Assembly (NCBI GenBank): GCA_016213925.1 | Contig: JACQZH010000041.1 | Span: 1-38,781 of the forward strand | Source of the DNA: Candidatus Omnitrophota bacterium | GTDB taxonomy: Bacteria; Omnitrophota; Gorgyraeia; B26-G9 | Reading direction: 5' to 3' | DNA: 38,781 bases | In this document: positions 4,351-36,804 of the stretch, one piece after another | Layout: every line of letters begins with the position of its first letter | Position numbering within the stretch: the first letter of the stretch is position 1 | Position numbers and translations under genes: made by a program | Notes under the pieces: model-generated | What the model was told of the DNA's origin: nothing | The model's database searches: none | Seen by the model: the letters and a program-made list of their open reading frames with translations, nothing else

Positions 4351-4379
4351 TTGTTTTTTTATGTGAATTTTGCGATAAT
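4351..4379 (+). promoter_or_regulatory. Candidate sigma-70 promoter for the PAS/HD-GYP gene
   Basis: A TTGTTT -35 box (4351-4356) and a GATAAT -10 box (4374-4379) are separated by 17 nt. A TGC directly before the -10 makes it an extended -10. Transcription would start near 4386, leaving a leader of about 50 nt before the ATG at 4437. Confidence 0.5.
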
Positions 4380-4389
4380 CATTATTAAA

Positions 4390-4402
4390 CCCAACGTTTG
4401 GG
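4390..4402. promoter_or_regulatory. Perfect palindrome at the predicted transcription start (candidate operator)
   Basis: CCCAA-CGT-TTGGG is a perfect 5-bp inverted repeat with a 3-nt centre. It stands out from very AT-rich surroundings a few bases after the predicted start of transcription, where a bound repressor would block initiation. No cognate regulator is visible in the window. Confidence 0.35.
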
Positions 4403-4436
4403 ATAAAAGTAATTCAAAATATTATTTACTAATAAT

Positions 4437-15984: not shown

Positions 15985-16011
15985 CCCGGACAAAAGTTAA
16001 TGATTATGCTT
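15826..16011 (+). other. LysM domain interrupted by TAG (15982-15984)
   Basis: The domain opens with YIVKPGDNLWDIADKYLG, a textbook LysM start. The expected end of the fold is Ile-Tyr-Pro-Gly-Gln-x-Leu. Here the frame reads Ile-Ile-(TAG)-Pro-Gly-Gln-Lys-Leu-Met-Ile. The stop therefore occupies the usual Tyr position (TAT or TAC, one base from TAG), and the conserved Pro-Gly-Gln lies downstream of it in the same frame. Confidence 0.8.
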
Positions 16012-22000: not shown

Positions 22001-25000
22001 CATGGCGCGATATATTAAGCATTACTCCTGATGATGCCAGGCCGGTTATGGAAAATCTGCAGTCGGCAATGAAAGATTGGAATATAAATTATAACGACCT
22101 TTCCGCAAGGCTTATGGTTGAAGATGTTACAGAGCAGCAAGTGCGGGAGTTTGCGGTTAAGAATCAGCTTTTGGCTGTTTATGGACGCGCTTTGGCTATT
22201 GTGCGCAATGAAAGGCTGCCTGAACGTTTAAGAGTAAAAGTTGCCGAGGCTGTTGGTATTGAGGAATTATTTACTTATCAGGTTTTAAGAGACAAGCGCT
22301 TGCCGGAAGAGAAAATCGTTGATATCTTTGTAGACAAGCTGCTTAAGCATATCGTAGACAAGCACATTATGTTCTTGAAGGCGAACAACAAAGCGCGGGA
22401 TGTTCTGGGCAATGCCGGTTTTTACAAGGAATTTATGGAACGCATATATTCTCTGCAATATCGTTTAGAACAGAAATCGGCATATGAACGCAATGGATTG
22501 GATAAAAACGAGATTAAATATCTTGTAAGCCAGCAGATAAGCAAGTGGCAGCACAAGTATGAGCCTGTAATGGGAGAAATTAACAGGCCTGCTGACGCGT
22601 TGATATTGCCTAAAGGCTCACTTGACGCGAAGCCGCAGTATTTTACCGATCATCAGAAATGGCTGTTCGGGAATATGGAACGCCAGATGCTTAATCGGTT
22701 TGAAAATAATGAATTTGATGTTGTGCTTTTGCGCATGGAGCCAGGGCAAAAAGAAGTTAGCTACGAAGGGTTTGCCACAGTTGAGGAATTTGAACTGGCA
22801 TATCCTCCGAAGCAGGCGCATAAATATTATGATTTTGCTTTACCCGGAGAAGAGGTTGATAAATGGGGAAGGCCTTTACGCCAGTTATCCGATGAGGAAA
22901 TAAGCCAGCGCGATAAGCAGGGAAGAAGATATCAGGCATGGATAACTAAAGACGGAAATGAATATATGGTTTTATTCAGCCCGGGCTTGCTCGAAGAAAA
23001 GGCCGAAGAAAAAGCCTCGTTTATGAAATCCGAGAAAAAGCTCTCAGGTGTTTTGGCGCGCATAGAACACGCGGTTGAAATGCGCGTTGATAAATACGGC
23101 AATCCTAGTGGAGAGCCTGTGGCGGAATATTCGGATAAACGGATAATCGCCCTGGAAAAAAATAATATCCCTGTTCTTGATGACAAGGGTATTCCTGTTG
23201 TTGTACTGGGAGAAAAGAACGAAAAAGGAGATTTGCTTGAAGAAAGCCGGCGCATAGGTTTTTACGCTGAAAACGCAGATGGCATATTAATAAGGGTTGA
23301 CCCGGGCAAATATGCTTTTGATCATATAATCGTTGAAGACACAATCAGGGATAATAACCCGAAGACCGGTAACCGGATAATGTTTGGTGAAGGCTCTATC
23401 AGAAGGCGCATTGCTTTGAATGTGCTTGGCCGTGATTTTGCCGAAAGGCGGGTAAAACAGGACGAGCAGAAATTTCAGGATGGCCAGAAATGGAAAGCAG
23501 TCGAGAAGATGCTTCCTATGTTCGGTTCTTTAGCCGGTGAACAGGCAGTCGGTGTGGTTAGGCTGCTCTTTAACATCGGCGTAACCATGCAAAGCCTGCC
23601 GGATGTTCCGACAAAAGAAGATACAAAAAAATTATTTGAAGATACTTTTGACGGCGATGCGGAAAAATTCATTAAGTTTGTGCAGAAAGTCAATGAAGGC
23701 GATAAGAATAAAACCCTTGATGAACGCATAACCGAAGCAACCGGCGTTAAAAAACAAAAATCACTGGATATCTTAAAACTTTCGCTTTATGTCATTGATA
23801 ATGCCGCAGGGATAGCGGATATAAAACGCGACAATAACGGCTTGCTTAAAGACTGGTTTGCTTATTTTAGCGGCGGTGAAATTAATTTAATGGCAATACT
23901 GGGCAAAGCTTTCGGCCAGGATTTTCTCGGGCGCGGTGAATTCGGCGCGCAAGGGGCGCAAAGGTTATTGGTTCCGCTGGGAGTAACTGTTGATATATTT
24001 GACTTATTTAAGATTGATTCGAAATCCGATGTTTATAACCCTGATTTATTCCGGGTTTATATCTTCGGTTACCCGCTTTTCGGAGATGAACAGGCATTAA
24101 AACAATATATTGATGCGCGTAAAAACAGCTACGCTGTAGAAATTTCTCCGGATAAGAACGGTATTGCTAAGGTTTATCCCAGTAAAGAAAGCATGGAAAA
24201 AGTCCGGCTTAAAAGAGTAGGCAGTGTGGATTTTAAACTTCTTGGCGTTAACTGGGATTTATTTGTTAATGAAGAAACCGGCGGTTATATTGTCCTGGGA
24301 GCGCGCGCGTTTGAAAAGGAGTTTGAGCAGCTGCAAAGAGAACTTAAAAGGCAGCAGGATATAGAGAAGATAAAAACAGGAGAGCCTGGCGTTATCAGCC
24401 GGTATAATCATGAATCAGCGCCGGTTATCGACGAGCAGATATTCACTCAAGAAAATATCGGGATTAACGATATCGTAAATTTTGTCGTAGGTTCAAGAAG
24501 CTTGAACACATCTCTGCCTCCGAGTTATTTTTATGAGCCGGGAGATAACGGCCTTGAGCATAACAGGAATATAAGTTACGTTTATGACCTGGGACTGTCG
24601 TATCTTTTGCTTGAATCCCAGGGGGAAAATGTCCTTGGCAGCGCTCAAGCCGATTACCTGGCGAATACCCGCACGTTATACCCTTATTCCCAGGAACTTA
24701 AAAAAGGCAAAGGGGAATTGCTTGGTATTGCCAATGCTATTGACAGCACAGCGCGCCAGGGAAGAATACTCGAAGACTATACAACTACAGGCCCTGTAGC
24801 TTATGTGGCGCGGATGTTCTTAACTGAATATCAGAAAACAAAAGATCAGCGCTTCTTTGATAGAGCGGTTGAGCTGATGGATGTGCTTGAAAACAGGACC
24901 TCTGATGACGGCGCGGTTGTAAAAGGCGTTAAAAGAGATGTTGTCCGTCCGGGTGAAGAGGATCATTGGCAGATAAAATCCGGCGAAGAAAATATCGATG

Positions 25001-28000
25001 TTTTAAGCTTATACCGCCAGGCGCATGAATTATATGAGAAGGATCCGAAAAAATACAGGCAGTTAAAAAGCGTTAACGCCCGTTTTGAAAAAATCGCTGA
25101 CTGGTTATGCGCTACGCTCTATGATAGGGGAAAAGGATATTTTATCCGCGGCACATTAAGAAACGAGAAAGACAATGTATTCGCGACCGATGTGAACGTG
25201 CTCATGCTTTTGGGCCTTGGTCCTAAAGAATTGGACTCAAGGATTGGCGATGGTACCGCAGAGAGGATCTGGCGCAATACCCAGGCGCAGGCTAAGGTAA
25301 ATGTTGAAGCGCAAAAGAGCGACGATACTAAAGTTAATGTTTCTTTATATGATTGGACAAATGCCGAAGAAAGGGCAAAAGCCGACAGGAATGAAGCGGG
25401 CTTTTTGGAAATCAGCGGACAGATGGCGTTGGGGCATTTGGTTATGGCAGAGTATTATCAGCAAAAACAGGATATGGATTCGGCTTCGGATGAAATTAGT
25501 AAATACAAAGCTTTAATATCCGCACTTGACTCTCTGGCAGTATCGGTTTTAGGCCGCGGTGCCGTATATCCGTATTCAACCGCTTCCGGGATAAAGGCTT
25601 TTTCTGATTCTAATTTTATGGTTCCGCAGGCGCGCGGCAGTACCTCGGCGACAAGCTGGATAGGATTTGCGAAACTCGGGTTTAATCCGTTGACCAACGA
25701 ATATATCGCGCCTGATTTAAGCGGAATTCCCCAGTCTCAACGCGCGGGCAAATACACAAGCCTGGAAAAAGGCTGGGATGAAAATCTTAGCGCGATTATC
25801 CGAAAACGCATGCAGGATGAAAATACCACGGTTGAAGTTGGGGCAGAATATAAAGACAAAGCCGAAGAAACCTTAGAAAGTTTGATGGCAAGAAAGGAAA
25901 AGCTAAGAGAACTCCGGGCTAAAGCCGCCAGCGTTGGCTTAAACAATCTTAATGCCCAAGAGCAGAAAGAACTGCAGCAGCTTGTAAATCAAAACTATCT
26001 GGTATATGTGGATATTAAACGGTTCCGTTACGGTTATTATGATGTCAGCAGTAAACAGCCGGTGGAAGTTACTATTAACGCAAGCCACGAGGATATAGAA
26101 AAAGACATCGAAAGGCTAAGTAAAGAAAAAGCTTTTGCCGATAAAAGAGCCAAGCTTATGGAGCAGGGCGGCATTACTGTCTATGATTCTCAAGGCAGGA
26201 TCGTTGAAATGAAAATAGGCAGGGATGAGTTTGAAAAGCAGTTAAGGCAGGTGTTAAGCCTGTCTCCAGCGGTGGCAAATGAAATTGCCCAAAGCGGATG
26301 GGCATATCCTTCTTACGATGCCCAGGGCAATCAGATTCTGATTGTGATACAGCACCCGGTTGGAGAAAGTATAAAGCTTGAAAATATCAAAAACCCGTTC
26401 AGCAGCGAAATGGAAAATTTAACGTTTGAGCGCGGGAATTTAATTAAAAGAGAAGTCAAAGACAGTTCTACCGGAAATGTGCGTGAGGTTACAATAAGCG
26501 AATTTAATGAACTGGGGATAAAAGTCCGCGGATATTCGACGAACATGATTACCGGTGAAAAAGTAAAGGAATACGCGGGTTTAAGCTATGACCCAAAGAC
26601 CGGAGAGTACGCGGAAAAAGAAATAGACTTGATTAATCACAGCGAATCGATAAAGGTTTATTCCGGCTATAAGCTCGGATATCCGAATCCGAAACGCGTT
26701 ATTACTGAAGACATGGTTTTGGAATTTATGATGGACGCAGACGGGCGCGCTGTACAGAATAAGAGCTGGAAAAATATAGGCACGCTGGAAAACCCGAAAG
26801 TGGGCGAGCAGGAAGAATCATCGCGGGCAAAACGCGTAAGCTTTAATAAAGACACCGGCTGGTCGGAATGGCTGGTTGAGGATTTTGAGCATGATAAGGC
26901 TTTTATTGAGACTAGAGACAATTTAGGCAGGCTGCGTTATGAGTATTCCGGGCACCTTATCAAAGGGAATTTTGTAAAAGAAAAAGTAACTGTTTATCAT
27001 TACGCCTATGATGAAAATAAATTTAAAGGGCTTGGCTTTACCGCGCAGGAAATGGCAGTATTGGCTTCCTACGGCAAGTCTATGGTGGGCTATACCTATG
27101 AATATGACCAGGCGAAAGAAGGCGGGCTTGGAAAACTTCTTAGCAAGTCTTTAATGAAAAAGATTGACGGTAAAAATTATATCGACGAAAAAGGTAAAGT
27201 GCTTGTTGAATTCGAAGACATGTTAAAGCCTAAAGTTTGGCAGGAAGTGCGTAATAATAAGGGCTACCGCGTGCTGCGTTATGACGGGTATTTGGAAAAC
27301 GGAAATTTTATCTTTGAACGGATCACTGAATTTATTTACGCAAACGCTTTGCTTGCTAAAACCGGTACCGCGACAAAGGCAGTATGCTATTATTACGACG
27401 GCAAAACTAAAGGCAATGTGGTTTCCGTATCCGAGCTGGCTGCTGTTGATAAGGCCGCCAAACAAATGACGCTAAGGGTAACAAAAGATAAGACTCAATA
27501 TTTGGAAATATACAGTATGTCCGGGGATAAATTGTATACGGTTAACCCGAAGGTAGGCAAGATATTCAAGATCGCGCATGATAAGTATGACTATGAGATC
27601 GGCGCGGATGTCTATGAAATCGCGCAAAAGGAAACGGGAAAAACTTTAAAGATTAAAACAGGTGATAATTCATGGCAGGCATTCCAAATCAGCCCGCTTA
27701 ATAAACAGCGGATCTCCCGGCAGTGGGCATTGCCTGATGATTTACCTAACGCGAAAGCCATCGGGCCGCTTGACATTGTCAAAACGCATGTTTGGACTGA
27801 CAGCGATGATTTAAAAGTTATCCAGGCCAAGCCTCAAGTCAGCGACGTGCCGGTTTTTGCCGTTGACCGCTATGGTGATGAGGTCGCGAAGTTTTACCGC
27901 AATGAAGCGGTGTTTAACTTAAGAGAAAAATTCGCTGATATCAAGAATTTAAAAGGAATAAGCGCGAATGTAACCGGAGTTTCCAATGATAATAAAATAT

Positions 28001-31000
28001 CCCGGGTTTATGCTTTTGATGAAACAACTTTCCAGATTAAGAAAAAACAAAGCAATGCGGAATATGATTTAAAAGCTTGGGCAGTTACTACTGATAAAGA
28101 GGTTGATATTGATAAAGCTCTGATGGAGTGGATGGTAATAGACCGCAGGTCCGCTGATATGTTACGGATAGAACGCACAACAGCCATAGATTATTACGGC
28201 ACAGAAAAAGCGGTTATTACCAGGCTTCCGGAAGGCCAGCGGTTGATCGAACTGATAAAACCTGAAGATAAATTTGTCCCGCAAGAGGCAAGGAAGAAAA
28301 TAGGGACAGATGATGACCCTGTACGGATAATGTTCTTGACTGAATTTTCCGATAAAGCCAAAACCTACACAACTGATACAACCGGATGGTTTAAAGTAAG
28401 TTTTGAGCTTAACCCGGAGCAGTTTATTGGTGTTATCGGGAAAGTGAAAAATTCAGACAGCAGTGTCAATGAAATAAAGCGGATGCTTGAAACCGTCGCG
28501 AAAGATTTAAATATCGATATTCCAAATAATAATGTTTTTGAGATTTTAGTAACTCCGACAGTAAGCTTTGAAAAATCAGGCGGCGAAACAAAAGCCTACA
28601 GGTTTAAAGGCGATCCGTTGGCAAGAGAGGTTATTGCCGGATTGGATAATGCTTATATTGTGGCAGTATCTTTCGACGAAGAAGGTAAATCAACGAAAAG
28701 CTATACTGTGTTTTCCGGAAATATTATCGGCGAAGCAATTACGCCGGAAGAAAAGAAAACGGCAAAAGAAATAATTACTCCAATAATTGAAAAAGCATAT
28801 GAGCGGACTTTTAGAGAGAAAAAGTTCGCGTATTTGGAAGACGGCAAAGGAAGATTTGATATCTGGACATATCTGGCTCGTCTGGGAATTACTCCGGAAA
28901 CAAAACTGCCGACAATTACCCTGACAAAGTTTCTGCCGATTATTGATGAAGATACCGGGGAAATTACTTATGAGCCAACCAATAAAGGCACTCAAAAACA
29001 GATTACGCTTTGTTTACTGCCGAAAGATCCTTTAGGCAGGGAATTAATATCAATGTTTGAGATGGCTGACCCTGATAAACCGAAAATAATAAGGGAAGCT
29101 ATAGTATTTAATGAATGGTGGAGGACAGATTTAAAAAATCCTTTAGGCATTTTGCCTGGCGCGAGAATTATATTTAAGAACGGAAAGCTTGGCGAAGATA
29201 AGGAATTCCGCGACAAATCAGAAACAAAAGCATATACCAACGGCAAAGAAGGCGAAGTGCGTTCCGCTTATAATTACAAAGTTAACAGGTCTGTTTATGT
29301 ACTGCATGAATATTTCGATATAAAAACTAACCGTTTAATTCAGCGCGGGTTTACCCAGGTTGTGCACCGTTTAGGAAATCTTGTGCCTATTCGCGACGGT
29401 TCGGAAAATGTTTTTTACGATATTCATTTCCCTTATGAGAAACCGGTAAAAGGATATCATGAATCCGGAGAATTAGTTAGATACTGGGAAAAGTTCGGCT
29501 ATCGCAGGGACGGTATAGGAGTACAGCAGGTAATCGAGCGCAATCCTTTGACCACAGCTGTTTCGCGTGAACGCTATGAATATAGTAAAGTTGGCGGATT
29601 TTTAAATAAGAAAAGAGCGGATATATTTGATGAAATTGACCGTACCATGGCTGAACAAATCAGCCTTTGGGAAGCGCAGCGCGGCGCTGATATGGGCATG
29701 GGAAAAAGAAAGGAAATAGAAGAGCGTATAAATAAGAGTAAAGAAAGCCCAAGGCTATTGCTTGAGAAATTAAAAGATTCTCCGACTTATAATCCTTTGT
29801 CTAAAGAGCTGTGGAAGTATTTGCATGAGAATATTGAAATAAAAGAAATGGTAGCAGTTTTCGCGGTTGCTGTTGTCTGGGGGCTGCCGTATTTAATTAA
29901 AGGCATTGCCTATTTATACAGGTTTATCAGCGGATTACTGCGGAAAACAGAATATGCTAAAAAAATTGCTAAGATCAAGGAACAGGAAGAACTAAAAGAT
30001 AAAAAAGATCAAGAAAAATTAACTGATGAAATCAGAATTTATGCTAAAGAATACGATTTTGATGATCCCGCTAAGAAAAAAGAAGGGAAAGATGATACTA
30101 CGGAATCGATTGTGTTTGTAGTAAGCAATCAGCTTGTAGGGTCTAACCGTACCCAGGAAAAACTGCTCGCGGACGCTTTTTCAGAATTCAGGGATTGGCT
30201 TAGCCAGACAGAACAGAGTTTGCCTGCGGGCATTGAGCTTGATCTTAAGCATTATGTTTTATATAAGCTTATTGATATGAGAGCAGGTAATTTTAAGAAA
30301 ACTTTGCCTGCGATTAGGTTCTATTTATTCCTGCGGGCATTGAGAATGGAAGCGGAAAACGAAAAGCGAAAGCAAACCGGAGAAGCAATGATTGCTATTG
30401 GTAAAGAAATATCAGCGGAAATAGATATCTGGCTTAAAAACTCACACGGATTCTATATTTATAAAAATCTCGGTACCGGTTACAGCAGTGACAGCACCCC
30501 TAAAAAATACAGGATTAATTATGAGGATATGGAAGAAATGTTCAGGGATAAGGAGTTTGTCAGCAGGTTATTGAATGAACGTACGATGCTTAGGAATGGA
30601 GCAGAGTTTAATGATGCTTTAAGAAAAGCTTTGCAGGAAGGAGTTCAAAAACTAAAAGATGTTTTAGCCAGTGCGGAGAAAACACAAAAACTGGCAAAGA
30701 AGCTGCAAGCTATGGCTTTAGATCCTAAGAAAAAAATTGAAGGCGCTGAGCAAAAACATGGTGACCTGGATGTAAAGCTTGTTGCGGAAATTATGAAAAT
30801 TTTTGCTAAAAGTTTTCTAAAGTCTTTGGGAGAAGATTGGCTTAAAGGGCATCATAAGGCCAGGAAAAAGATAATGGAACAGGAAGTAATGTGGGAATTA
30901 CAGCAGCTTACAGAAGTTTTTCTCAAATATGAGAATGCGAAAAGGGCAGTTGAAAAGACATCGCTTGAACTTGAGGCAGCAAAGAAGGAAAATGAATCCG

Positions 31001-34000
31001 CAAAATTAGCTGTCGCAGAAAAGAAGAAAAAAGAGGCTGATAGCGTATTTGAAAAGGCAAAAGAGAAGAAAGAAAGCGCGGTTAAAGTATGTGTTAAGCG
31101 TATAAAGAATATAACAAATATTGATGTGGATGAGAATAAGCTTGGCCAGATTGTTAATGCGGCTTTAACAGCTATGAGTCTTGCGATTGACTTTTTAGGC
31201 CCAAGGAGTAGTGATAAAGAAAGAAAACCTTATTTAGAAGTTTTTTATCCTCTGGTGTTGGGCAAGGAAGGCTCGTTGGAAGCGGCAATTTCATTCTTGA
31301 ACGCAAAAGCAAGTGATTTGGAGAAAAAGGCGGGAGAAATTAGTGAAAATGCGCAGCAAACGAATAATCAGATACAGGCGCTTGAATTAAAAGCAGAACA
31401 GATGCGAGAGCCTAAGCAGATAGAAACTGAAATAAAAGAAGCTGTTAGCCGGATTGAAAGCGCAAGCCAGGAAGAAGCAAAACAAGCTGCAGAATTGTTT
31501 ACGGACTCTTTTATTTCTTCTTTTGATATTTATACGTTAAAAACAGACAAAGAAGCTAAAAAAGAGATGTTGAAAGTGCTGCAGCAGGCAGTGGATGCGG
31601 TTATTAAAGGAGATGCCGGGTTGAAAATAGCTGCTTTAGATAGCTTGGTAAGTTATTTTAGAACAACGGCAAATATTGATGTTGAGCCGGGATATATTGA
31701 AACTAAGATAAAGGCGTCTTTGACAACGGTTATGATTCTTCCTGCAATGGATATTAAAAATAAAGATGTAATGCAGGCTTTGCAGGCTTTACTGATTGTT
31801 GCGGAAGTTTATATTATGAATAATTCAGGCAAGAAAGCCGTTGCCAGGCCGTTTGCCGAGGTTCTTGCGCAATGGCTTGCTTTATCTGTACTGATGTATA
31901 GTACGCAAGAGAAGTTTGATAAAGAAGGAGAAAATTATGAGGAACAAAGAGAATTCCAGGAAATAGCTGAAAAGATCCAGTTTTATAAAACTGAAAAAGA
32001 CATCTCCGGAGATATTACTTTAGGAACGTTTAATATCGGAAAGTTTTCCGTCAAAGGAACTACTTTATTGGGATTAACTTTAGGCTTGATAGCAGCTGCA
32101 ATGGCTTCTTTATTCGGTTTTGGCAGCTATGAGACTACTTTGACTGAAAAGCTTATTGCTCCCTCTTTAATTACTTTAGCAGGATTATTTACCGGCACGT
32201 TTGCATCCAGGGTTGGCTTAAAAGGCTGGTTTAGTTTCTTCGGCACTTTCGCGAAACAGCTTTCGATCTATTTAGGGCTAGCGCTGATAGTTGCTGTAGC
32301 GGTTGTTCCTTCAGCTACTGCTTTTGTAACGCAGTATCCGGTTATCCTCGGCGCCAGCGCGATTATGTTGGTTGGCGCTTTGATTTTCGGATATCCGGTC
32401 AGGAAAATTTTCGTTCAAGGCTCTGTTGAAAAAGGCAAAAGAGGGGCTTTCTTTGCGAAGTTTGCCGGGCAGTCCGCTTTATCAGTTGTTTTCTGGGGAT
32501 TGACTTTTGGCACAAAGCTTATCTGGAATGTACTGCTGGTTAACTGGCTGAAAATCCCGTTTTTGAATATCCTTGCTTTAAATATTCCGGGGCTTTATAT
32601 CGGGTTGTTTCTTATAATTTTAGTTGCGCCTTTTGTGATTTTCTTCTTCCTGGATAGTTTTACATTCTTTTATTTCTGGGAATGGGTATTTGGATTATTT
32701 AAAGGCTGGGCATCAGGCCTTGGGCCGCAGGAATCCGCAAAAACTATCCGTGAAGGATTAAAAAACAGTGCGCAGAACGCGCAAACGCTGGTTATCGGCT
32801 CTCACGAGCAAGAACCGGAATCCTTGAAAAAGAACGGCAATTTGATCTCTGCTGCTGTTCTCGAGAATCTTATCCGAGAAAGCATGATTTCAGAGCAGGA
32901 AAAAGAGCAGATGCTTGAAGATGCGTCAAAGTTGCCTTCAGGCTTGGAAGCAAGGGAAAGGCTGCAGTTTTTCTTTGGTTCATTAAACATGATAAAGCAT
33001 AGAGTCAGCTCCTGGGAGTTGTTGCCTTCACTTTCACTGTGTATTCCTGCGGCAACGACGGAAAGTATTTTTGTCTTTTTGGAAGAGCTGAATAAACCTG
33101 ATAAAGGAATAAATAAGACCAAGCTTACTCATCAGATTGCGCAGTATCCTGTTGAATGGCATAATTTAATACTTAAAATTCAGAAGCAGTTTCCGCAAAT
33201 CCCTTTGGAAAAGCTTAAAGAATGGGAAAACCTTGCGCAAAAACAGGCATTTAATTTTGAAGGCATTGTTTTAGATGGTGCTGCTAAACGAAAAATAACT
33301 GAAATGGTAGAAGACTGGGCTAATATGCGTTTTCAGCCTGTTTACAGGACGATTATGGGGCTGGTCAGTGTCTGGAGAGCATATCAGCTGCATGCGAAGA
33401 TGTATTTTAATACAGAAGATGAGGATTTTATTAATAAAAAAGTTGCGGAAAAACTGCAGTTATTAGCAGGAGTTCAGCGTTACGGAAAGAAGGATGAAGA
33501 AAGCGTTAGGATCAGGAAATTTGTAATGGATCTTATGGAAAAATTGTATGTTGAAGAAGGAATTACTTTAGAGATTACTTATTCTGCCAGTGGGGTGACA
33601 GGGGTTGAATATGTTGAAGGGGAAAGAGATGAGAAAGGCAAACGGGTTGTAACGTCAATCAAAGAGCGCAATGCGCCTTCTACAACCGATTCTCATAAAA
33701 GTTTTAAGCCTATTATCCAAAACAGTATTCTCGGCTGGGTAAGAAATGATGTGTCATTTTTCTTTGACTCAAACTGTTCGTTCCGCTTTGAAGATGCTTT
33801 GAAACTTCCGTTGCTTTTACAGGAATTTAATGATGACCCTACGCTTATGGGCGTAAATATTCCGGAATATATTTATACGACCCGTTTTAACTGGCTGGGT
33901 GAGGCGCACGGTTTTGGAGACAGGACATGGACTGCTTTTATCCAAAGAGTGATTTCCCAATTCGGCGCAGTCGGGTTCTACGGCCACGGCGCGTTATTCC

Positions 34001-36804
34001 GTACAGAGCTGATGGCTGAATTCGGCACAATAGCGCCTGATTATGTCAGTGAGGACCTGATGCTTGCGATAAAGACCTGGCTTAAAGGAAAAGGCTATCA
34101 TATAGCGCATAGAGAATATGTCCAGGCAGGTAAAGCCAGAGAAGTAAGTATTGTTTCCGGCGCTGTGCCGTTCCAGAAATTTGCCGCGGGCAGCGCGGAA
34201 ATGGCAATGGGCAGGCAGTTAAGAAATTTGTTTAAAAGCAAGGAATTTACCTGGGGCCAGAAATTAATGCTTTTCTTTACTTTGGCGTTTTTCTACCGCA
34301 AGCCTTTGGTATTGATTGGATTGCCGCTTTATCTGATATCCGTGCTTTTCTTTGGCATCAGCGGTTATGCCGCGTTTCCCTTAGAAATAAGTTTAGCTGT
34401 TTTAGGCGTATGGTTTTCCCAGATGATCAGTTTTACAGGTATTGGCCAGTGGATGATTGAACGCGGCATAAATAAAGCGATAGTTGATTTCTTTGGTTTA
34501 TTGCCCACTGCTTTTATTGTATCAATGATCGCGAAAACCTTGTTTATTCCGATGAGCTTACTTCCTGCTTTTGGGATGACTGCTTTGATTGTTTTATCAG
34601 TTATTTTTTGGAAAAAAGCAAGAAGCGGAAATCTTGAAAAAGCAATACCGTCATTTTTCGGTATCTTGCCGAAATTAATAGCGGTATTTATTGCTTATGT
34701 GCCTGTGTATGCTGTTGGAGTAACTAATGGAATGAAAGGCTTGGCAAGATTTGTTACTACTGCTAAAGGATGGGGGATAGAGAAATTTGATTTTATAAAT
34801 ACAGTTTTCAAAGTGGGGATATGGAATGATAAAAAAGGAAATTTAGATTTTCCACAGGCAAATGAATCATTCCGTTTTCAAATGGTTTTTTCAAGCGTGT
34901 TTGTTCTGATTGCCGCGCTTGGCGCTTATTTGTGGCAGGCAGTGCCGATATGGTGGTCAGCGCTGTATCTTACTTCAATCTTTATGTGGATGTATTCAGT
35001 AATTATTAGTTTACCGGGAATTTTATTGCAGACAACACACTACGGCATATCCAAAAAAGAAAATAAGAAGGAAAAGGCGGAACAAAAAAAGCTGACTGAA
35101 GAACCTGCTAAAGAAAAAGCTAAGCCGAAATTAAGTCTGAAAGAAAAAACAAAACTTTTGATAGAAAAATTCTTTAAAACAGAATTTGGAGCCTGGACAG
35201 TGTTATTATGGAAAGAGTACTTTTGGAAAATATGGACCGGCCCGGGAAAAGATGATAAAGAATATGTTAATTTTAAAGAACATCATGGGAAATGGTTTAT
35301 GACAAAATATTTCTTGTTTTTTGACTTATCTCTTGTGATTGCGGGTGCGGGATTATTGGGTTTTGGCGGGGCTTCATGGAATATAATCTTTTTCTTAGGC
35401 CTGCCGAGCGTGATCGGTGTATTTTTCGTGCTTTATATTTTGGGCGGGTTAAGCTTTTTACTGCGTCCTTTTTTAGAACGGCTTAACTTAGAACGCCTTG
35501 ATAAGATAAATTCTGCGCCGGTCAGAGGTAATGCTGATACCGCAGAACCGGCAGTAACTTCTTCGGAACAGCCATATCCTGCGGTAGTAAGCGCTGAAGT
35601 AAGGCGGCTTGGACTGGATGAGCTTAAGGCAAAAGTTAAGATCAATATCACTAAAACAGGTATTAATGTAATTGGGCTGGAAGGTTTAGGCTTAGATGAT
35701 GACGAGTTTAAAATATTAAATACAGCGCTTGGAAACGCTTTAGAACATATTTCAGCGGCTGAACAATTAGAACAAATGTCTTTAGATCTGCCGATACTGG
35801 TTTCCTATGATTTAAAAGAGATCAGCCGCCATTTAAACGCGCGGATTGAATTGCACCGCCATCTCTTACGCAAGCCTGATAACGCGGCTGAACAGCTTTT
35901 GTACGCGCCGAAAGAAACCCAGGAAGAAACGATTCTATTTTTAACCGGCGTCTTGTTCCATGAGATCATCCATTTCTTAAACCCTGAAATACCGGAATCT
36001 GATGTTGAAGCAAGAACCGTAGAATATTACAAACAGAACCCTGAAATTTTAAGAGCGGCCTTAAAAATACTTGATGAGAATAATATTAATCTGATCAGTG
36101 CTGATGAAGCATGGCTTAGCCTTTTAAGAAAAACATATAGGCAGATGATTTCACAGCAGGCTTTAGCTGAAGATAAAGTGAAAGAGAATATATCGGAAGT
36201 TCAAGGTATGCTTGGAAGTGTTATTGCTGATGAAGAAATATTGAGCTTAGTAAACGTGCAGGATATTGTTTTAAATATTGCGCCTTTAAGAACGCAGGAT
36301 CTAGTGGATAAAGATGATATAATTTCTGCGGTTGTTGATGAAGTATCAATGTTCGAGCTGAAATTAATTGGTGTTGATATCGCGGATGACGGAAGCATTT
36401 TTATAAAAGGTTATGTGGATGAACAGGCTTTGGTGCAAATAAATAGAGCGCTTAATAAGTTTGGCTTGAGTTTTAATAATCCTAATATTATAAATATTAA
36501 GATAGCGGCGTTGAATAAAGAAGCGCGATCTTTAAATAGAGAGCAGCAAATAGAGTTTGAGCTTATTATGGCAAGGATAAACAATGCGGAGCTTGGTATT
36601 ATTGATGTTGATACTAAAGTTGTGTTCGAGGCATTGTTAGAAGTTATTAGAGAGCGCAGGCCTGTGCAGTTACCTTTGGATGATAAAGCTGTTACTCCTC
36701 TTAGCACTGATCCTTTGAACGCTATTATTGATAAAATAGTTCCGGTAATTGAAAGGCAGCAATCACCGCAGGATATGAGGGAATTATTTGACATCGCGGC
36801 GTAA
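16000..36804 (+). CDS. Giant envelope protein with TolC-like, glycosidase-like and GT48 glucan-synthase-like regions (6934 aa from first ATG)
   Basis: A 20.8-kb open frame with no internal stop. From the first ATG its order is: coiled-coil helices (residues about 110-410); a beta-rich outer-membrane-barrel-like part (470-850); TolC-like helical repeats (950-1870); unknown mixed regions; an (alpha/alpha)6 glycosidase-like domain (2797-3240); beta-strand-rich repeats faintly like YD/RHS (3460-3870); an unknown region; a membrane hairpin (4617-4649); coiled coils (about 4950-5150); and a GT48-like synthase with flanking membrane helices (5344-6491). A tail follows with HEIIH at 6654-6658. The ATG at 16000 has no Shine-Dalgarno and the frame has no signal peptide. 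It is in frame with the upstream 1615-codon gene, which supplies both. I infer a single product of 8555 residues (11137-36804) with a membrane-embedded synthase and periplasmic or outer-membrane modules. TAA stop. Confidence 0.85.
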   Translation: MIMLSESTSDKALPQEQVSGIVPTGQEKQKSDTAVPVAGTMQQAQVKIVSSSGVEAAQTAGGPLLFRSLDESVLLETLSRFVGKTAKGSIAEDEEKSSEHVLRVPEKSEEALKTEGLLQKALESYTRMLNDYEKARQAYLNLLQIKRGAKGFLDVKKSVLDLNTVLELEWQYKLLEKNEAYRVSEGVFMNEGLAEQKKESEEDRDALQYMIDHYKFANIGKYIPSRQQVETGLNYWQQHINQAETELTSLNKQKSSTGLTADELKLLDLQVTAQESRKVIAQKEINDLLMDRKVHYDNIKETAMSIATRKRDLSIEEISYYDATLALYKQIWEIQKNSNTSGMSKLKTWLEQLNSRDNNVMERLRERLGEVSDATENMLRAQGVMFSQDNLLDEAKARIEELIMQLNKQGAGEQLVLTLSDNSKLVSKQSFSRFIDGILEKSEYSVEQRGQLKDKALGLDASTLEKLGLTDLNFTRMGADENSYYFVTHAGYGEWEEVYVKAGNLLKLFGNTQMNVFAYGLGRNSSDGLSEGAYGMGAEFVTTGKERPLSNALVFDIYKPIFPEAIAWKDTGEGDGPHSRLFVFEDFGVLLAKDESGDYRAFIGFEGFADVPLFSPEKGESTEKGGLNKENYEFSGSSFGGLLKANYRFFGPIKLKAEAGAFYAQDNRSQDFSWKFGDPITGDSWQFVDPETGQITDTFKYSTAGKQMKYIFERLGVEIDMQQVLKSEDSFSVEFFVEDENNTEGYDQSSVGAGVKKNFKMKVADVRLKGEAKFGEEQNIYKGEVGVKLPKDWDIRLQARYANHPTWSASVGKKVGGVNLEAGIAQPYESTGKIYPYITADKSANVGSALDDALDEGEAKRIFSGQDSRIESLKGSSPLVSSLPYALSNSSYSSTVAGIREKLSRDFGRFSAFMKGRVGMSIDNGEVNSSIEKKYGFDIGVSFGVERKDQLTEAEIGTALVDIQRDLRELDVFYAQRCNEIVDAYITLVKVSWRKEASLQMLDKVKGSASDELVATARYEFEKARTEYQTQQARFAQLINNGQKATEIITMLPKMGDTKLLHEQVKEAVGKWFSGMEPIKLQAEVEEVGFWKGLFSGKIARTFRNLGLKKVEIGWDITSIALGDGPSAKLNVPIRIYDPENSAKSEVLDFEHQIFDAQSREFIKQAQAENFIAAEQRSKRAQLAEEIDSRRVLVETRLLQAVSDYNNIESAKEGDLWQSADQKRSDVELQASLLLDNERDLAFLLVNEEVLKLRERAQLKTSRSPPKDKETPVVTQEASVPVIEELNSNNFLEIFTNNVTPNANISVDIAQMRLNQARILSQKGNPAGKLSVDIGVGFDLESGDFGVFPSLRGEIGRGRDTKADKFTAEQEQKEIQRNLVVANLKELFITSLTKYIAFNEMLEEQLDTATRAEIELELIRVRAVINQILNQPLETKLNVNLTLEDIEQKIAGFFDKEKDKADENARLEMMRKQLIILEAQKKIIESGGNLKFDLPVYLFFSPEPTVIAAWAGIKLLRWFIGYLDNSKHLEKAQLLAQMQSDIDRLRGQTQVQEAAASFKTETVKLVISDEALKSADFAKYLQATVQAVRRGIDVTDQSQLPDAQTAKEYAVDAADILEMAASRDIDSITAYLNFKFAREDSSFRVKRYLDQPQSYLEAGRWFGDSKPAATAVIELTSEYEKMPWLDDYKRLQLERDNKELLWQQAQAKAELKAAGLLYELAVIELTQKNVRDERALSALRVRKAEVEKQLKVILGIRLDNNLTVLNLGKLLEGRKNFTVDHAQAAQLFTTRILNNPQITGISNEVQQAKVMIQGLMQEFNVKARTVLGFKSGKDSQGQQVNDIVGGIYFETPDAGQIADMIRPYVVRYKIKEEEKEAAVAGLSLELNTLFADLSGYGQRLDSSSKLFYTYLQDYEAKSYLGDIEEKVASEKKMIEAMHSYLDDLYGFYSSYEKLKTFLKSVGVDISSAQLKAQSGKVVLPAAQLSKGTALANTQDVLWERTWRDILSITPDDARPVMENLQSAMKDWNINYNDLSARLMVEDVTEQQVREFAVKNQLLAVYGRALAIVRNERLPERLRVKVAEAVGIEELFTYQVLRDKRLPEEKIVDIFVDKLLKHIVDKHIMFLKANNKARDVLGNAGFYKEFMERIYSLQYRLEQKSAYERNGLDKNEIKYLVSQQISKWQHKYEPVMGEINRPADALILPKGSLDAKPQYFTDHQKWLFGNMERQMLNRFENNEFDVVLLRMEPGQKEVSYEGFATVEEFELAYPPKQAHKYYDFALPGEEVDKWGRPLRQLSDEEISQRDKQGRRYQAWITKDGNEYMVLFSPGLLEEKAEEKASFMKSEKKLSGVLARIEHAVEMRVDKYGNPSGEPVAEYSDKRIIALEKNNIPVLDDKGIPVVVLGEKNEKGDLLEESRRIGFYAENADGILIRVDPGKYAFDHIIVEDTIRDNNPKTGNRIMFGEGSIRRRIALNVLGRDFAERRVKQDEQKFQDGQKWKAVEKMLPMFGSLAGEQAVGVVRLLFNIGVTMQSLPDVPTKEDTKKLFEDTFDGDAEKFIKFVQKVNEGDKNKTLDERITEATGVKKQKSLDILKLSLYVIDNAAGIADIKRDNNGLLKDWFAYFSGGEINLMAILGKAFGQDFLGRGEFGAQGAQRLLVPLGVTVDIFDLFKIDSKSDVYNPDLFRVYIFGYPLFGDEQALKQYIDARKNSYAVEISPDKNGIAKVYPSKESMEKVRLKRVGSVDFKLLGVNWDLFVNEETGGYIVLGARAFEKEFEQLQRELKRQQDIEKIKTGEPGVISRYNHESAPVIDEQIFTQENIGINDIVNFVVGSRSLNTSLPPSYFYEPGDNGLEHNRNISYVYDLGLSYLLLESQGENVLGSAQADYLANTRTLYPYSQELKKGKGELLGIANAIDSTARQGRILEDYTTTGPVAYVARMFLTEYQKTKDQRFFDRAVELMDVLENRTSDDGAVVKGVKRDVVRPGEEDHWQIKSGEENIDVLSLYRQAHELYEKDPKKYRQLKSVNARFEKIADWLCATLYDRGKGYFIRGTLRNEKDNVFATDVNVLMLLGLGPKELDSRIGDGTAERIWRNTQAQAKVNVEAQKSDDTKVNVSLYDWTNAEERAKADRNEAGFLEISGQMALGHLVMAEYYQQKQDMDSASDEISKYKALISALDSLAVSVLGRGAVYPYSTASGIKAFSDSNFMVPQARGSTSATSWIGFAKLGFNPLTNEYIAPDLSGIPQSQRAGKYTSLEKGWDENLSAIIRKRMQDENTTVEVGAEYKDKAEETLESLMARKEKLRELRAKAASVGLNNLNAQEQKELQQLVNQNYLVYVDIKRFRYGYYDVSSKQPVEVTINASHEDIEKDIERLSKEKAFADKRAKLMEQGGITVYDSQGRIVEMKIGRDEFEKQLRQVLSLSPAVANEIAQSGWAYPSYDAQGNQILIVIQHPVGESIKLENIKNPFSSEMENLTFERGNLIKREVKDSSTGNVREVTISEFNELGIKVRGYSTNMITGEKVKEYAGLSYDPKTGEYAEKEIDLINHSESIKVYSGYKLGYPNPKRVITEDMVLEFMMDADGRAVQNKSWKNIGTLENPKVGEQEESSRAKRVSFNKDTGWSEWLVEDFEHDKAFIETRDNLGRLRYEYSGHLIKGNFVKEKVTVYHYAYDENKFKGLGFTAQEMAVLASYGKSMVGYTYEYDQAKEGGLGKLLSKSLMKKIDGKNYIDEKGKVLVEFEDMLKPKVWQEVRNNKGYRVLRYDGYLENGNFIFERITEFIYANALLAKTGTATKAVCYYYDGKTKGNVVSVSELAAVDKAAKQMTLRVTKDKTQYLEIYSMSGDKLYTVNPKVGKIFKIAHDKYDYEIGADVYEIAQKETGKTLKIKTGDNSWQAFQISPLNKQRISRQWALPDDLPNAKAIGPLDIVKTHVWTDSDDLKVIQAKPQVSDVPVFAVDRYGDEVAKFYRNEAVFNLREKFADIKNLKGISANVTGVSNDNKISRVYAFDETTFQIKKKQSNAEYDLKAWAVTTDKEVDIDKALMEWMVIDRRSADMLRIERTTAIDYYGTEKAVITRLPEGQRLIELIKPEDKFVPQEARKKIGTDDDPVRIMFLTEFSDKAKTYTTDTTGWFKVSFELNPEQFIGVIGKVKNSDSSVNEIKRMLETVAKDLNIDIPNNNVFEILVTPTVSFEKSGGETKAYRFKGDPLAREVIAGLDNAYIVAVSFDEEGKSTKSYTVFSGNIIGEAITPEEKKTAKEIITPIIEKAYERTFREKKFAYLEDGKGRFDIWTYLARLGITPETKLPTITLTKFLPIIDEDTGEITYEPTNKGTQKQITLCLLPKDPLGRELISMFEMADPDKPKIIREAIVFNEWWRTDLKNPLGILPGARIIFKNGKLGEDKEFRDKSETKAYTNGKEGEVRSAYNYKVNRSVYVLHEYFDIKTNRLIQRGFTQVVHRLGNLVPIRDGSENVFYDIHFPYEKPVKGYHESGELVRYWEKFGYRRDGIGVQQVIERNPLTTAVSRERYEYSKVGGFLNKKRADIFDEIDRTMAEQISLWEAQRGADMGMGKRKEIEERINKSKESPRLLLEKLKDSPTYNPLSKELWKYLHENIEIKEMVAVFAVAVVWGLPYLIKGIAYLYRFISGLLRKTEYAKKIAKIKEQEELKDKKDQEKLTDEIRIYAKEYDFDDPAKKKEGKDDTTESIVFVVSNQLVGSNRTQEKLLADAFSEFRDWLSQTEQSLPAGIELDLKHYVLYKLIDMRAGNFKKTLPAIRFYLFLRALRMEAENEKRKQTGEAMIAIGKEISAEIDIWLKNSHGFYIYKNLGTGYSSDSTPKKYRINYEDMEEMFRDKEFVSRLLNERTMLRNGAEFNDALRKALQEGVQKLKDVLASAEKTQKLAKKLQAMALDPKKKIEGAEQKHGDLDVKLVAEIMKIFAKSFLKSLGEDWLKGHHKARKKIMEQEVMWELQQLTEVFLKYENAKRAVEKTSLELEAAKKENESAKLAVAEKKKKEADSVFEKAKEKKESAVKVCVKRIKNITNIDVDENKLGQIVNAALTAMSLAIDFLGPRSSDKERKPYLEVFYPLVLGKEGSLEAAISFLNAKASDLEKKAGEISENAQQTNNQIQALELKAEQMREPKQIETEIKEAVSRIESASQEEAKQAAELFTDSFISSFDIYTLKTDKEAKKEMLKVLQQAVDAVIKGDAGLKIAALDSLVSYFRTTANIDVEPGYIETKIKASLTTVMILPAMDIKNKDVMQALQALLIVAEVYIMNNSGKKAVARPFAEVLAQWLALSVLMYSTQEKFDKEGENYEEQREFQEIAEKIQFYKTEKDISGDITLGTFNIGKFSVKGTTLLGLTLGLIAAAMASLFGFGSYETTLTEKLIAPSLITLAGLFTGTFASRVGLKGWFSFFGTFAKQLSIYLGLALIVAVAVVPSATAFVTQYPVILGASAIMLVGALIFGYPVRKIFVQGSVEKGKRGAFFAKFAGQSALSVVFWGLTFGTKLIWNVLLVNWLKIPFLNILALNIPGLYIGLFLIILVAPFVIFFFLDSFTFFYFWEWVFGLFKGWASGLGPQESAKTIREGLKNSAQNAQTLVIGSHEQEPESLKKNGNLISAAVLENLIRESMISEQEKEQMLEDASKLPSGLEARERLQFFFGSLNMIKHRVSSWELLPSLSLCIPAATTESIFVFLEELNKPDKGINKTKLTHQIAQYPVEWHNLILKIQKQFPQIPLEKLKEWENLAQKQAFNFEGIVLDGAAKRKITEMVEDWANMRFQPVYRTIMGLVSVWRAYQLHAKMYFNTEDEDFINKKVAEKLQLLAGVQRYGKKDEESVRIRKFVMDLMEKLYVEEGITLEITYSASGVTGVEYVEGERDEKGKRVVTSIKERNAPSTTDSHKSFKPIIQNSILGWVRNDVSFFFDSNCSFRFEDALKLPLLLQEFNDDPTLMGVNIPEYIYTTRFNWLGEAHGFGDRTWTAFIQRVISQFGAVGFYGHGALFRTELMAEFGTIAPDYVSEDLMLAIKTWLKGKGYHIAHREYVQAGKAREVSIVSGAVPFQKFAAGSAEMAMGRQLRNLFKSKEFTWGQKLMLFFTLAFFYRKPLVLIGLPLYLISVLFFGISGYAAFPLEISLAVLGVWFSQMISFTGIGQWMIERGINKAIVDFFGLLPTAFIVSMIAKTLFIPMSLLPAFGMTALIVLSVIFWKKARSGNLEKAIPSFFGILPKLIAVFIAYVPVYAVGVTNGMKGLARFVTTAKGWGIEKFDFINTVFKVGIWNDKKGNLDFPQANESFRFQMVFSSVFVLIAALGAYLWQAVPIWWSALYLTSIFMWMYSVIISLPGILLQTTHYGISKKENKKEKAEQKKLTEEPAKEKAKPKLSLKEKTKLLIEKFFKTEFGAWTVLLWKEYFWKIWTGPGKDDKEYVNFKEHHGKWFMTKYFLFFDLSLVIAGAGLLGFGGASWNIIFFLGLPSVIGVFFVLYILGGLSFLLRPFLERLNLERLDKINSAPVRGNADTAEPAVTSSEQPYPAVVSAEVRRLGLDELKAKVKINITKTGINVIGLEGLGLDDDEFKILNTALGNALEHISAAEQLEQMSLDLPILVSYDLKEISRHLNARIELHRHLLRKPDNAAEQLLYAPKETQEETILFLTGVLFHEIIHFLNPEIPESDVEARTVEYYKQNPEILRAALKILDENNINLISADEAWLSLLRKTYRQMISQQALAEDKVKENISEVQGMLGSVIADEEILSLVNVQDIVLNIAPLRTQDLVDKDDIISAVVDEVSMFELKLIGVDIADDGSIFIKGYVDEQALVQINRALNKFGLSFNNPNIINIKIAALNKEARSLNREQQIEFELIMARINNAELGIIDVDTKVVFEALLEVIRERRPVQLPLDDKAVTPLSTDPLNAIIDKIVPVIERQQSPQDMRELFDIAA
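16336..17235 (+). other. Coiled-coil helical region of the giant protein
   Basis: Long uninterrupted amphipathic helices rich in Gln, Glu, Lys and Leu run from residue about 113 to 412 of the second frame. The spacing of hydrophobic residues is compatible with a TolC-like alpha-barrel or a rod. Together with the beta-rich part that follows, the order helix bundle then beta barrel recalls outer-membrane efflux proteins. Confidence 0.45.
17400..18560 (+). other. Beta-rich, outer-membrane-barrel-like region
   Basis: Residues about 467-854 contain many short strands with alternating polar and nonpolar residues, high Gly, Tyr, Phe and Asp, and tight turns, for example SASVGKKVGGVNLEAGIAQP and LKAEAGAFYAQD. 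This is the usual look of a transmembrane beta-barrel. No family is assigned; a barrel-prediction program would settle it. Confidence 0.4.
18850..21600 (+). other. TolC/OEP-like helical repeats
   Basis: At least three consecutive segments (about 18850-19790, 19860-20400 and 21060-21580) show the same plan: a short beta stretch with a line like KLSVDIGVGF or ARTVLGFKSG, then paired long helices with 'LxxAQxxL'-type spacing. This is the pattern of the outer membrane efflux protein (OEP) repeat of TolC, which forms the periplasmic tunnel and the outer-membrane strands. The match is by eye. Confidence 0.45.
24390..25720 (+). other. (alpha/alpha)6 six-hairpin glycosidase-like domain
   Basis: Residues about 2797-3240 show repeated helix pairs separated by loops with conserved-looking acidic and aromatic residues: YVYDLGLSYLLLESQGE, GPVAYVARMFL, EENIDVLSLYR, ATDVNVLMLLGLG, EISGQMALGHLVMAEYY and ATSWIGFAKLGFNPL. 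That series is typical of six-hairpin glycosidases, the superfamily of GH8, GH9 and GH15. I cannot name the CAZy family. In a glucan-making polypeptide it could trim the product, as the GH8 enzyme BcsZ does for bacterial cellulose; that role is inference. Confidence 0.5.
29851..29949 (+). other. Membrane-spanning segment at the start of the synthase half
   Basis: Residues about 4618-4650 (MVAVFAVAVVWGLPYLIKG and the following YLYRFISGLL) form one or two hydrophobic helices in an otherwise soluble stretch. It is the first clear membrane segment of the second frame. It is followed by about 2 kb encoding soluble, partly coiled-coil protein before the main membrane domain. Confidence 0.55.
32030..35470 (+). 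other. 1,3-beta-glucan (callose) synthase-like region, GT48 / Fks1 type
   Basis: Residues about 5344-6491 match the order and spacing of GT48 landmarks as I recall them from fungal Fks1 and plant callose synthases: membrane helices ending FFFLDSFTFFYF; EARERLQFFFGSL (32947); YPVEW; WANMRFQPVYRTIMG (33316; Fks1 WASLRSQTLYRTISG); FEDALKLPLLLQEF (33787); EYIY...LGE; YGH (33979); SED (34048); EYVQAGKAREV (34114; Fks1 EYYQCGKGRDL); IERGINKAIVDFF (34456; Fks1 IERGLWKATQRFF); GLARFVTTAKGWG (34738); WKEYFWKIW (35209). These enzymes polymerise UDP-glucose into beta-1,3-glucan at the membrane. The known family is essentially eukaryotic; bacterial curdlan synthase is GT2. Substrate and product here are unproven. 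Confidence 0.82.
35959..35973 (+). other. HEIIH zinc-metalloprotease-like motif in the C-terminal tail
   Basis: His-Glu-Ile-Ile-His (residues 6654-6658 of the second frame) lies in a helix ending FHEIIHFLNPEI, with acidic residues 10-15 positions later (SDVEAR). HExxH is the zinc site of many metallopeptidases. The rest of the tail shows no family I recognise, so a processing peptidase is only a suggestion. Confidence 0.4.

Follow-up and report, generated by a model that had tools for sequence, protein, structure and literature searches.

The giant open reading frame and its GT48-type domain

The window, by which we mean the whole stretch of 38,781 bases that was analysed (positions 1-38781 of a 143,880-base contig of an uncultured omnitrophote bacterium, from an assembly of 2.27 Mb that is 90% complete), carries on its forward strand a giant open reading frame of 6,934 aa (16000..36804; ORF list and translation). 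Residues of about 5,350-6,480 of this frame correspond to a GT48 (Fks1-type) synthase. Fungal walls, plant callose and the storage glucans of algae are made by GT48 enzymes, and the family is usually described from eukaryotes.

The ORF list places another ORF of 1,615 aa upstream in the same frame (11137..15984, forward strand). Its N-terminus is hydrophobic and signal-like, five further stretches are hydrophobic as well, and a LysM lies at its C-terminus. A TAG in the shared frame, at 15982-15984, separates it from the giant ORF. In the relative G288 one frame holds parts of both the upstream and the giant ORF, and in G268 and G166 the giant frame includes the start of the upstream ORF. Joined copies therefore exist, and because parts of both share a frame in these relatives the upstream ORF is probably the true N-terminal part of the protein. 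Either the gene in the window is split at the TAG or the stop is an assembly error. Further upstream, on the same strand as the giant ORF, a protein with PAS and HD_5 (HD-GYP-like) domains is encoded at 4437-6986.

The N-terminal part of the giant ORF (16300..23700, forward strand) contains no recognised domain. Across rows from five same-family genomes it shows 36-42% identity, and a profile search of the PDB with this part gave no match better than E 0.096. At the other end of the protein, C-terminal of the last helices, an HExxH motif (HEIIHF, window position 35959) perhaps belongs to a metallopeptidase-like domain.

A preliminary description of this DNA had recognised the synthase by ten GT48 landmarks. 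All ten lie in the giant ORF and keep the order in which they were quoted: EARERLQFFF (aa 5650, nt 32947), YPVEW (33145), WANMRF (33316), FEDALK (33787), YGH (33979), SED (34048), EYVQAGK (34114), IERGIN (34456), GLARFV (34738) and WKEYFW (35209). IERGINKAIVDFF and WKEYFWKIW are putative GT48 landmarks; GLARFVTTAKGWG sits at the place of Y..TGR or similar in those bacterial members that we call “classic” and departs from that pattern.

The search with the Pfam Glucan_synthase profile (PF02364) that had been proposed as a check matched the window at E 6.8e-22, with 77.9 bits or twice the cut-off of 37.2. The match covers nt 32935-34353 and profile positions 3-501 of 819 and, together with the residue mapping to Fks1, marks out the GT48 catalytic (GT-A) domain at 32935..34353 on the forward strand. 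The landmarks had been said to cover both the catalytic core and the helices that follow it. PF02364 bears this out for the catalytic part, whereas the later helices have no Pfam match in the window; in other bacterial members PF02364 does match them (profile about 549-716).

PF13632 (Glyco_trans_2_3) matched marginally over the second half of the domain (28.2 bits against a cut-off of 27), and no other Pfam model passed its cut-off in the three pieces that covered the ORF. In the same pieces neither GT84 nor GH94 had a Pfam or NCBIfam match at E<=1, and the only NCBIfam match was CelA at E 0.18. We therefore rejected a GT84 cyclic beta-1,2-glucan synthase, given that Pfam and NCBIfam found no GT84 or GH94 domain in the whole ORF. 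PilZ had no Pfam match on the window synthase.

When the PDB was searched by phmmer with the window domain, the six best chains were Fks1/Gsc2 (9.6e-9 to 3.8e-8). The remaining four rows at E<=1 were succinate dehydrogenase chains (0.005-0.05), matched through helices, and no GT2 chain appeared at E<=1. Three profiles gave the same order in the PDB: sixteen bacterial domains including the window (A1) matched Fks1 at 4.8e-82 and E. coli BcsA at 4.8e-9, seven “classic” domains (A2) matched Gsc2 at 8.5e-76 and BcsA at 2.6e-5, and seven window-type domains (A5) matched Fks1 at 1.1e-31 and cellulose synthase at 6.5e-6. Fks1/Gsc2 matched the first half of the profiles as well; GT2 chains did not. 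The original assignment to GT48 was thus right by Pfam, by PDB profiles and by predicted fold, GT2 being far weaker in both sequence and fold, and the window domain is almost certainly homologous to GT48.

Active-site residues and predicted architecture

DxD and QxxRW form the signature of GT2 cellulose and curdlan synthases. By eye, there is no QxxRW between the ED pair of the window and the next helix, and where the window has DSN, five GT2 rows carry a D in second place. The available text of PMC12715860 names E851, K1082, D1102, N1104, E1221 and D1222 as residues of Fks1, and contrasts Fks1, which has a DAN motif and works independently of metal, with the DxD of cellulose synthases. We aligned the window with Fks1 and use Fks1 numbering. 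The window keeps E851, K1082, D1102, N1104, E1221, D1222 and a lysine at 1261, which we take to be a position of interest in Fks1. Its DSN (33766-33774) corresponds to D1102-A-N1104 and its ED (34051-34056) to E1221-D1222, and QAGKARE lies at about 34123-34143.

Among the UDP-glucose contacts, E851 and K1082 are present in the window while Y849 and N1085 are replaced by T and I. Both of these positions also vary in other bacterial rows; they are a detail of the binding site and do not define the family. None of the 22 rows of alignment A3, two of which (L021 and L029) are the same protein, deviates at K1082, D1102, N1104 or D1222 or in the KxRE motif. Asparagine occupies position 1104 in every classic (23), Elusimicrobiota (3), window-type (7) and divergent Elusimicrobiota (6) row; the remaining three divergent rows have D (L025), H (L035) and I (L037). 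Both rows from the window's own family, L035 (genome G288) and L037 (genome G244), have lost N1104 as well as H1195, which may reflect relaxed constraint. The GT48-like parts of L035 and L037 are fast-evolving or decayed copies.

Behind the GT domain, all 13 classic rows with letters at that place read [TS]GR. The window has TTAKG there, and the other window-type rows have SPKG, SSKG, SLRG or SGKG. TTAKG is the presumed counterpart of RxTG, a reported UDP-glucose motif, in a stretch that was placed without Fks1 alignment. Taken together, this stretch and the changes at Y849 and N1085 suggest that the substrate or product may differ.

An AlphaFold2 model of nt 31987-35499, built with 21 further rows, reached a pLDDT of 63 and a pTM of 0.69. 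The catalytic core mostly scored 70-95, many helices and the end were poor, and 429 of 1,171 residues fell under 50. Superposition on Fks1 structures, another proposed check, agreed with the sequence searches: Foldseek ranks 1-13 were all Fks1/Fks2 (1.6e-18 to 1.3e-11) and BcsA followed at rank 14 (1.4e-8). TMq values to Fks1/Fks2 were modest (0.38-0.52), with an rmsd of 15-20 in the longer alignments; against 9wzv, 957 columns aligned with an rmsd of 5.6 and a TMq of 0.52.

Six transmembrane helices are predicted before the GT domain, as in Fks1 (32065..32640, aa 5356-5547, forward strand; hydropathy and a Foldseek alignment of about 960 columns). Another nine are predicted after it (34297..35439, forward strand), seven at aa 6100-6342 and two at 6438-6480 by hydropathy; they lie in a low-confidence part of the model and are our candidate for the polymer channel. 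The predicted arrangement is thus a GT-A domain of Fks1 type between two helix groups, with a DxN motif and a putative catalytic ED pair. Hydropathy also predicts a lone transmembrane helix at 29851..29907 (aa 4618-4636, forward strand). Between this helix and the helix bundle, 30184..30840 (forward strand) matches positions 15-191 of A3, from other omnitrophote synthases, with 62 bits, and we propose it as a cytosolic accessory region.

Two compact relatives with stops at both ends, L077 (3,129 aa, from the window's class) and L081 (3,046 aa, from another class), are 54% identical over 3,068 columns. They share the order barrel, middle block, lone helix, helix bundle, GT48 and helices; both have an N-terminal helix, and the lone helix lies at 1614-1632 in L077 and at 1592-1610 in L081. 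Three blocks align collinearly between L077 and the window: L077 aa 78-459 with window residues 2820-3231 (E 6e-31), 1403-1595 with the middle block at 4379-4538 (29134..29613, forward strand; E 3.3e-6), and 1951-2779 with 5414-6322 (E 1e-83). By analogy, this suggests a topology of periplasm, lone helix, cytosol, six helices, cytosolic GT domain and channel helices, in which the GT domain would face the cytosol like that of Fks1.

As called, the gene directly upstream of L077 and of L081 overlaps the start of the synthase by four bases, and it holds an OEP (TolC-family) domain (4.6e-19 and 69.4 bits for L077, 8e-16 and 58.8 bits for L081; cut-off 22). A second OEP gene lies downstream of the L081 synthase, and an HD_5 (HD-GYP-like) protein is encoded near the L081 synthase as well as in the window. 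The upstream OEP gene of these two relatives, together with inspection by eye, had led to the idea that the N-terminal 2,500 aa of the window protein are a fused TolC-like channel. This idea is unsupported: blastp and phmmer, the PDB profile and hhalign blocks found nothing, PF02321 scored 11.1 bits (E 0.31) on the N-terminal part, and no TolC-like domain was found in the window protein.

The first of the three blocks is an (alpha/alpha)6-barrel sugar-enzyme domain (24457..25692, aa 2820-3231, forward strand), identified by homology to the GH76-like domain of L077 and L081, by its model and by Foldseek. L077 is the only copy over the GH76 cut-off (2.2e-6, 27.9 bits against 25.9); L081 (19.2 bits) and the separate protein L116 (18.9 bits) fall below it, and GH76 had no Pfam match in the window copy or in L121. 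The model of nt 24472-25785 is confident and helical, with a pLDDT of 88.4 and a pTM of 0.90. Its best Foldseek matches are glucose- and cellobiose-2-epimerases (2.8e-8, TM about 0.55-0.65), followed by invertases and GH76. Judging from L077 and L081, the barrel would lie in the periplasm, where we propose a role in polymer processing.

The barrel domain occurs in 150 of 270 omnitrophote genomes, and among the matches listed most lie in separate proteins of about 650 aa. PilZ is a c-di-GMP receptor domain known from cellulose synthase, and both of the separate barrel proteins that were scanned start with it (L116 and L121; scores of 30.8 and 31.7 bits, cut-off 22.5). The barrel matches listed include 23 frames of at least 2,000 aa, and 9 of these also have a GT48-like match with the same contig, strand and frame length. 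The PilZ start and the company of GT48 favour a role of the barrel in exopolysaccharide making. The PilZ-barrel proteins of about 650 aa are possibly c-di-GMP-controlled polysaccharide enzymes.

Distribution and phylogeny of bacterial GT48

PF02364 matched 27 of 285 Omnitrophota genomes at E<=0.001, 24 of them over the cut-off, and none of 14 control genomes. A match lies in a frame of at least 2,000 aa (up to 42,913 aa) in 23 of the 27; in the other four it is a short stop-laden stretch (G145) or lies on short contigs or at a contig end (G179, G183 and G011). A window-type profile found 51 of 270 genomes at 1e-6, a count that includes at least two GT2-looking matches (G000:C17 and G119:C2; ORFs of 557-581 aa). 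In the Elusimicrobiota, the phylum of G291, 10 of 247 genomes matched, 4 over the cut-off. When 84,980 prokaryote species were scanned for two peptide patterns, a search that sees only copies with those patterns, 20 loci came back: 17 omnitrophote (including Aceula and Zapsychrus), two from Elusimicrobiota and one, L054 (SBBM01000032.1), under the label Planctomycetales bacterium. As for viral carriage, a search of viral contigs with two peptide patterns found no relative. The bacterial relative of GT48 announced in the preliminary description is therefore real, but it does not stand alone; the family is spread over Omnitrophota and Elusimicrobiota, for the most part within giant frames.

Some side observations concern other giant proteins. 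At G108:C2:86621-87103, a barrel match of 63 bits lies in an open frame of 70,450 aa. In other GT48 giants, three of 16 parts from upstream or downstream (A6) gave a hint of a GH2-type TIM barrel, and single members gave guanylate kinase, fucose pyrophosphorylase and NUDIX domains. A hint of GH72 in L069 was discarded as too weak (E 0.0012-0.0022, below the cut-off).

A literature search of titles and abstract starts, limited to the best-listed matches and with bioRxiv and most subscription papers outside its scope, returned no paper on bacterial GT48. The only text it found joining Omnitrophota with a glucan synthase was a mention of cyclic beta-1,2-glucan synthase. Bacterial GT48 entries may already be listed in CAZy or InterPro.

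Our tree comprises 48 rows (42 bacterial GT48-like sequences, yeast Fks1, four omnitrophote GT2s and E. coli BcsA), with near-duplicates and short fragments left out. It is rooted on GT2, the names of its groups are ours, and its one eukaryote sequence, Fks1, is a single long branch. Fks1 groups with the 32 rows of the classic and Elusimicrobiota sets (100/100), to the exclusion of the window and six other window-type rows, and the same split was obtained without the nine divergent rows (98/100). The window row lies just outside the group of the six other window-type rows (93/83), a placement that has no resolution once the divergent rows are removed. One clade of all seven is not rejected (AU p 0.215), and the window is tied to the window-type by motifs and by score (best phmmer matches L017, L029, L021 and L023). 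L035 and L037 fall deep in the tree beside GT2, which is probably long-branch attraction since they come from the window's own family.

A single clade of all bacterial GT48 without Fks1 was rejected by the AU test with 48 rows (p 0.009) but not with the nine divergent rows removed (p 0.07), and a clade of the classic bacteria without Fks1 was not rejected (p 0.18). These results make Fks1 nested in bacterial diversity the better-fitting reading, not a proven one. The bacterial row nearest to Fks1, L002, is 33% identical to it. By sequence comparison the window copy is divergent, and the “classic” copies of other Omnitrophota are much nearer to Fks1.

To our knowledge, the origin of GT48 has so far been an open question. 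It is discussed within eukaryotes in the available parts of two eukaryote surveys (PMC3797821, PMC7965971). With bacterial GT48 present in a good number of relatives, the origin of the family is now testable. One speculative scenario, which we think has well under an even chance, is that GT48 arose in bacteria from GT2 synthases, in lineages that now carry the giants of Omnitrophota and Elusimicrobiota; the window would be an early side branch, and the eukaryotic enzymes would come from a “classic” copy. If this were true, the synthases of the fungal wall and of plant callose would descend from that bacterial copy. The bacterial set is diverse, with some members near Fks1 and others towards GT2, and provides new relatives for work on structure and mechanism.

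Proposed mechanism and comparison with known systems

The window protein is most likely an envelope-spanning exopolysaccharide synthase. More specifically, we propose a membrane-bound processive GT48 polysaccharide synthase housed in a giant cell-envelope protein, and we put the probability of the mechanism as a whole at roughly 0.6. The GT domain would be cytosolic, would take a UDP-sugar, probably UDP-glucose, and would extend a glucan chain without a metal ion. The chain would be threaded through the helices behind the GT domain. Everything N-terminal of the lone helix would lie in the periplasm, where the (alpha/alpha)6-barrel would trim, epimerise or otherwise process the chain. In two relatives, the TolC-family outer-membrane protein encoded directly upstream would then export it from the cell. 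The synthase is probably active; beta-1,3-glucan as its product is a tentative proposal, which we hold to be somewhat doubtful.

An active GT48-type synthase could also make another polymer, differing in linkage or in sugar, and we regard this as a live possibility that is a little less than an even bet. It is consistent with the replacement of Y849 and N1085 in the window, with the different stretch that follows its GT domain, and with a barrel that resembles sugar 2-epimerases and GH76, not known beta-glucanases. A diatom GT48 is also credited with a linear beta-1,4 glucan in the available text of PMC7965971, yet the same paper has carbon 1 to 3 for GT48 elsewhere. On the other hand, E851, K1082, DxN and ED are all kept in the window. 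Moreover, the GT48 enzymes of known activity that we are aware of are beta-1,3-glucan synthases. It could be speculated instead that the domain is a decayed or structural pseudo-synthase, kept as the membrane anchor of a giant envelope protein, and the long branches and the loss of N1104 in same-family relatives would fit. This is improbable, however, as the core catalytic residues of the window are intact and the frame is open over 6,934 codons.

Two further readings concern the identity of the gene itself. GT2 and GT48 share a fold and Glyco_trans_2_3 is just over its cut-off, as would be expected if this were an ordinary bacterial GT2 synthase of cellulose or curdlan type that merely resembles GT48. 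However, Fks1 is ahead of every GT2 chain by more than 20 orders of magnitude in the profile searches and by ten in Foldseek, the motif is DxN and not DxD, and Fks1/Gsc2, but no GT2 chain, match the first half of the profiles. The profile searches and Foldseek exclude a GT2 identity for practical purposes, and the chance that we leave to it is negligible. A eukaryotic contaminant in the assembly, or a gene recently acquired from a eukaryote, comes to mind for a family usually described from eukaryotes, but is very unlikely. The copies are embedded in open bacterial giant frames in many separate genomes of two phyla, they are deeply divergent among themselves, and the GC content of the window copy is like that of its surroundings; contamination was rejected on these grounds.

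The proposed envelope-spanning synthase can be compared with three known systems. Like S. cerevisiae Fks1/Fks2 (GT48 1,3-beta-glucan synthase; PDB 7xe4, 8jzn, 9wzs and 9wzv), it has a predicted GT-A domain between helix groups, and it shares with them DxN, ED, K1082, E851, YGH and GKxR. In contrast to Fks1, Y849 and N1085 are changed, and the synthase shares a giant protein with a sugar-enzyme barrel.

As proposed, it would also work like the bacterial cellulose synthase system BcsA-BcsZ-BcsC (GT2), in which a synthase-translocase in the membrane is joined by an (alpha/alpha)-barrel enzyme in the periplasm and by an exit through the outer membrane. Here a single chain carries both synthase and barrel, and two relatives have an OEP gene upstream. 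The two systems differ in GT family. Furthermore, the best matches of the barrel are epimerases and GH76, not GH8, and the window synthase has no PilZ match, whereas separate PilZ-barrel proteins exist in the phylum.

Finally, the window protein resembles giant ORFs described from Omnitrophota (Ca. Velamenicoccus archaeovorus and others; PMC10066038, available text), which are very long, contain transmembrane helices and have few domains annotated. Neither “glucan” nor “glycosyltransferase” appears in the main text of that paper as available, and it calls the roles of these giant proteins poorly understood; a giant-gene preprint of West-Roberts et al. is cited in the available text of PMC12057145. 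Our data suggest that some giant omnitrophote proteins have a concrete enzymatic function in making and exporting polysaccharide.
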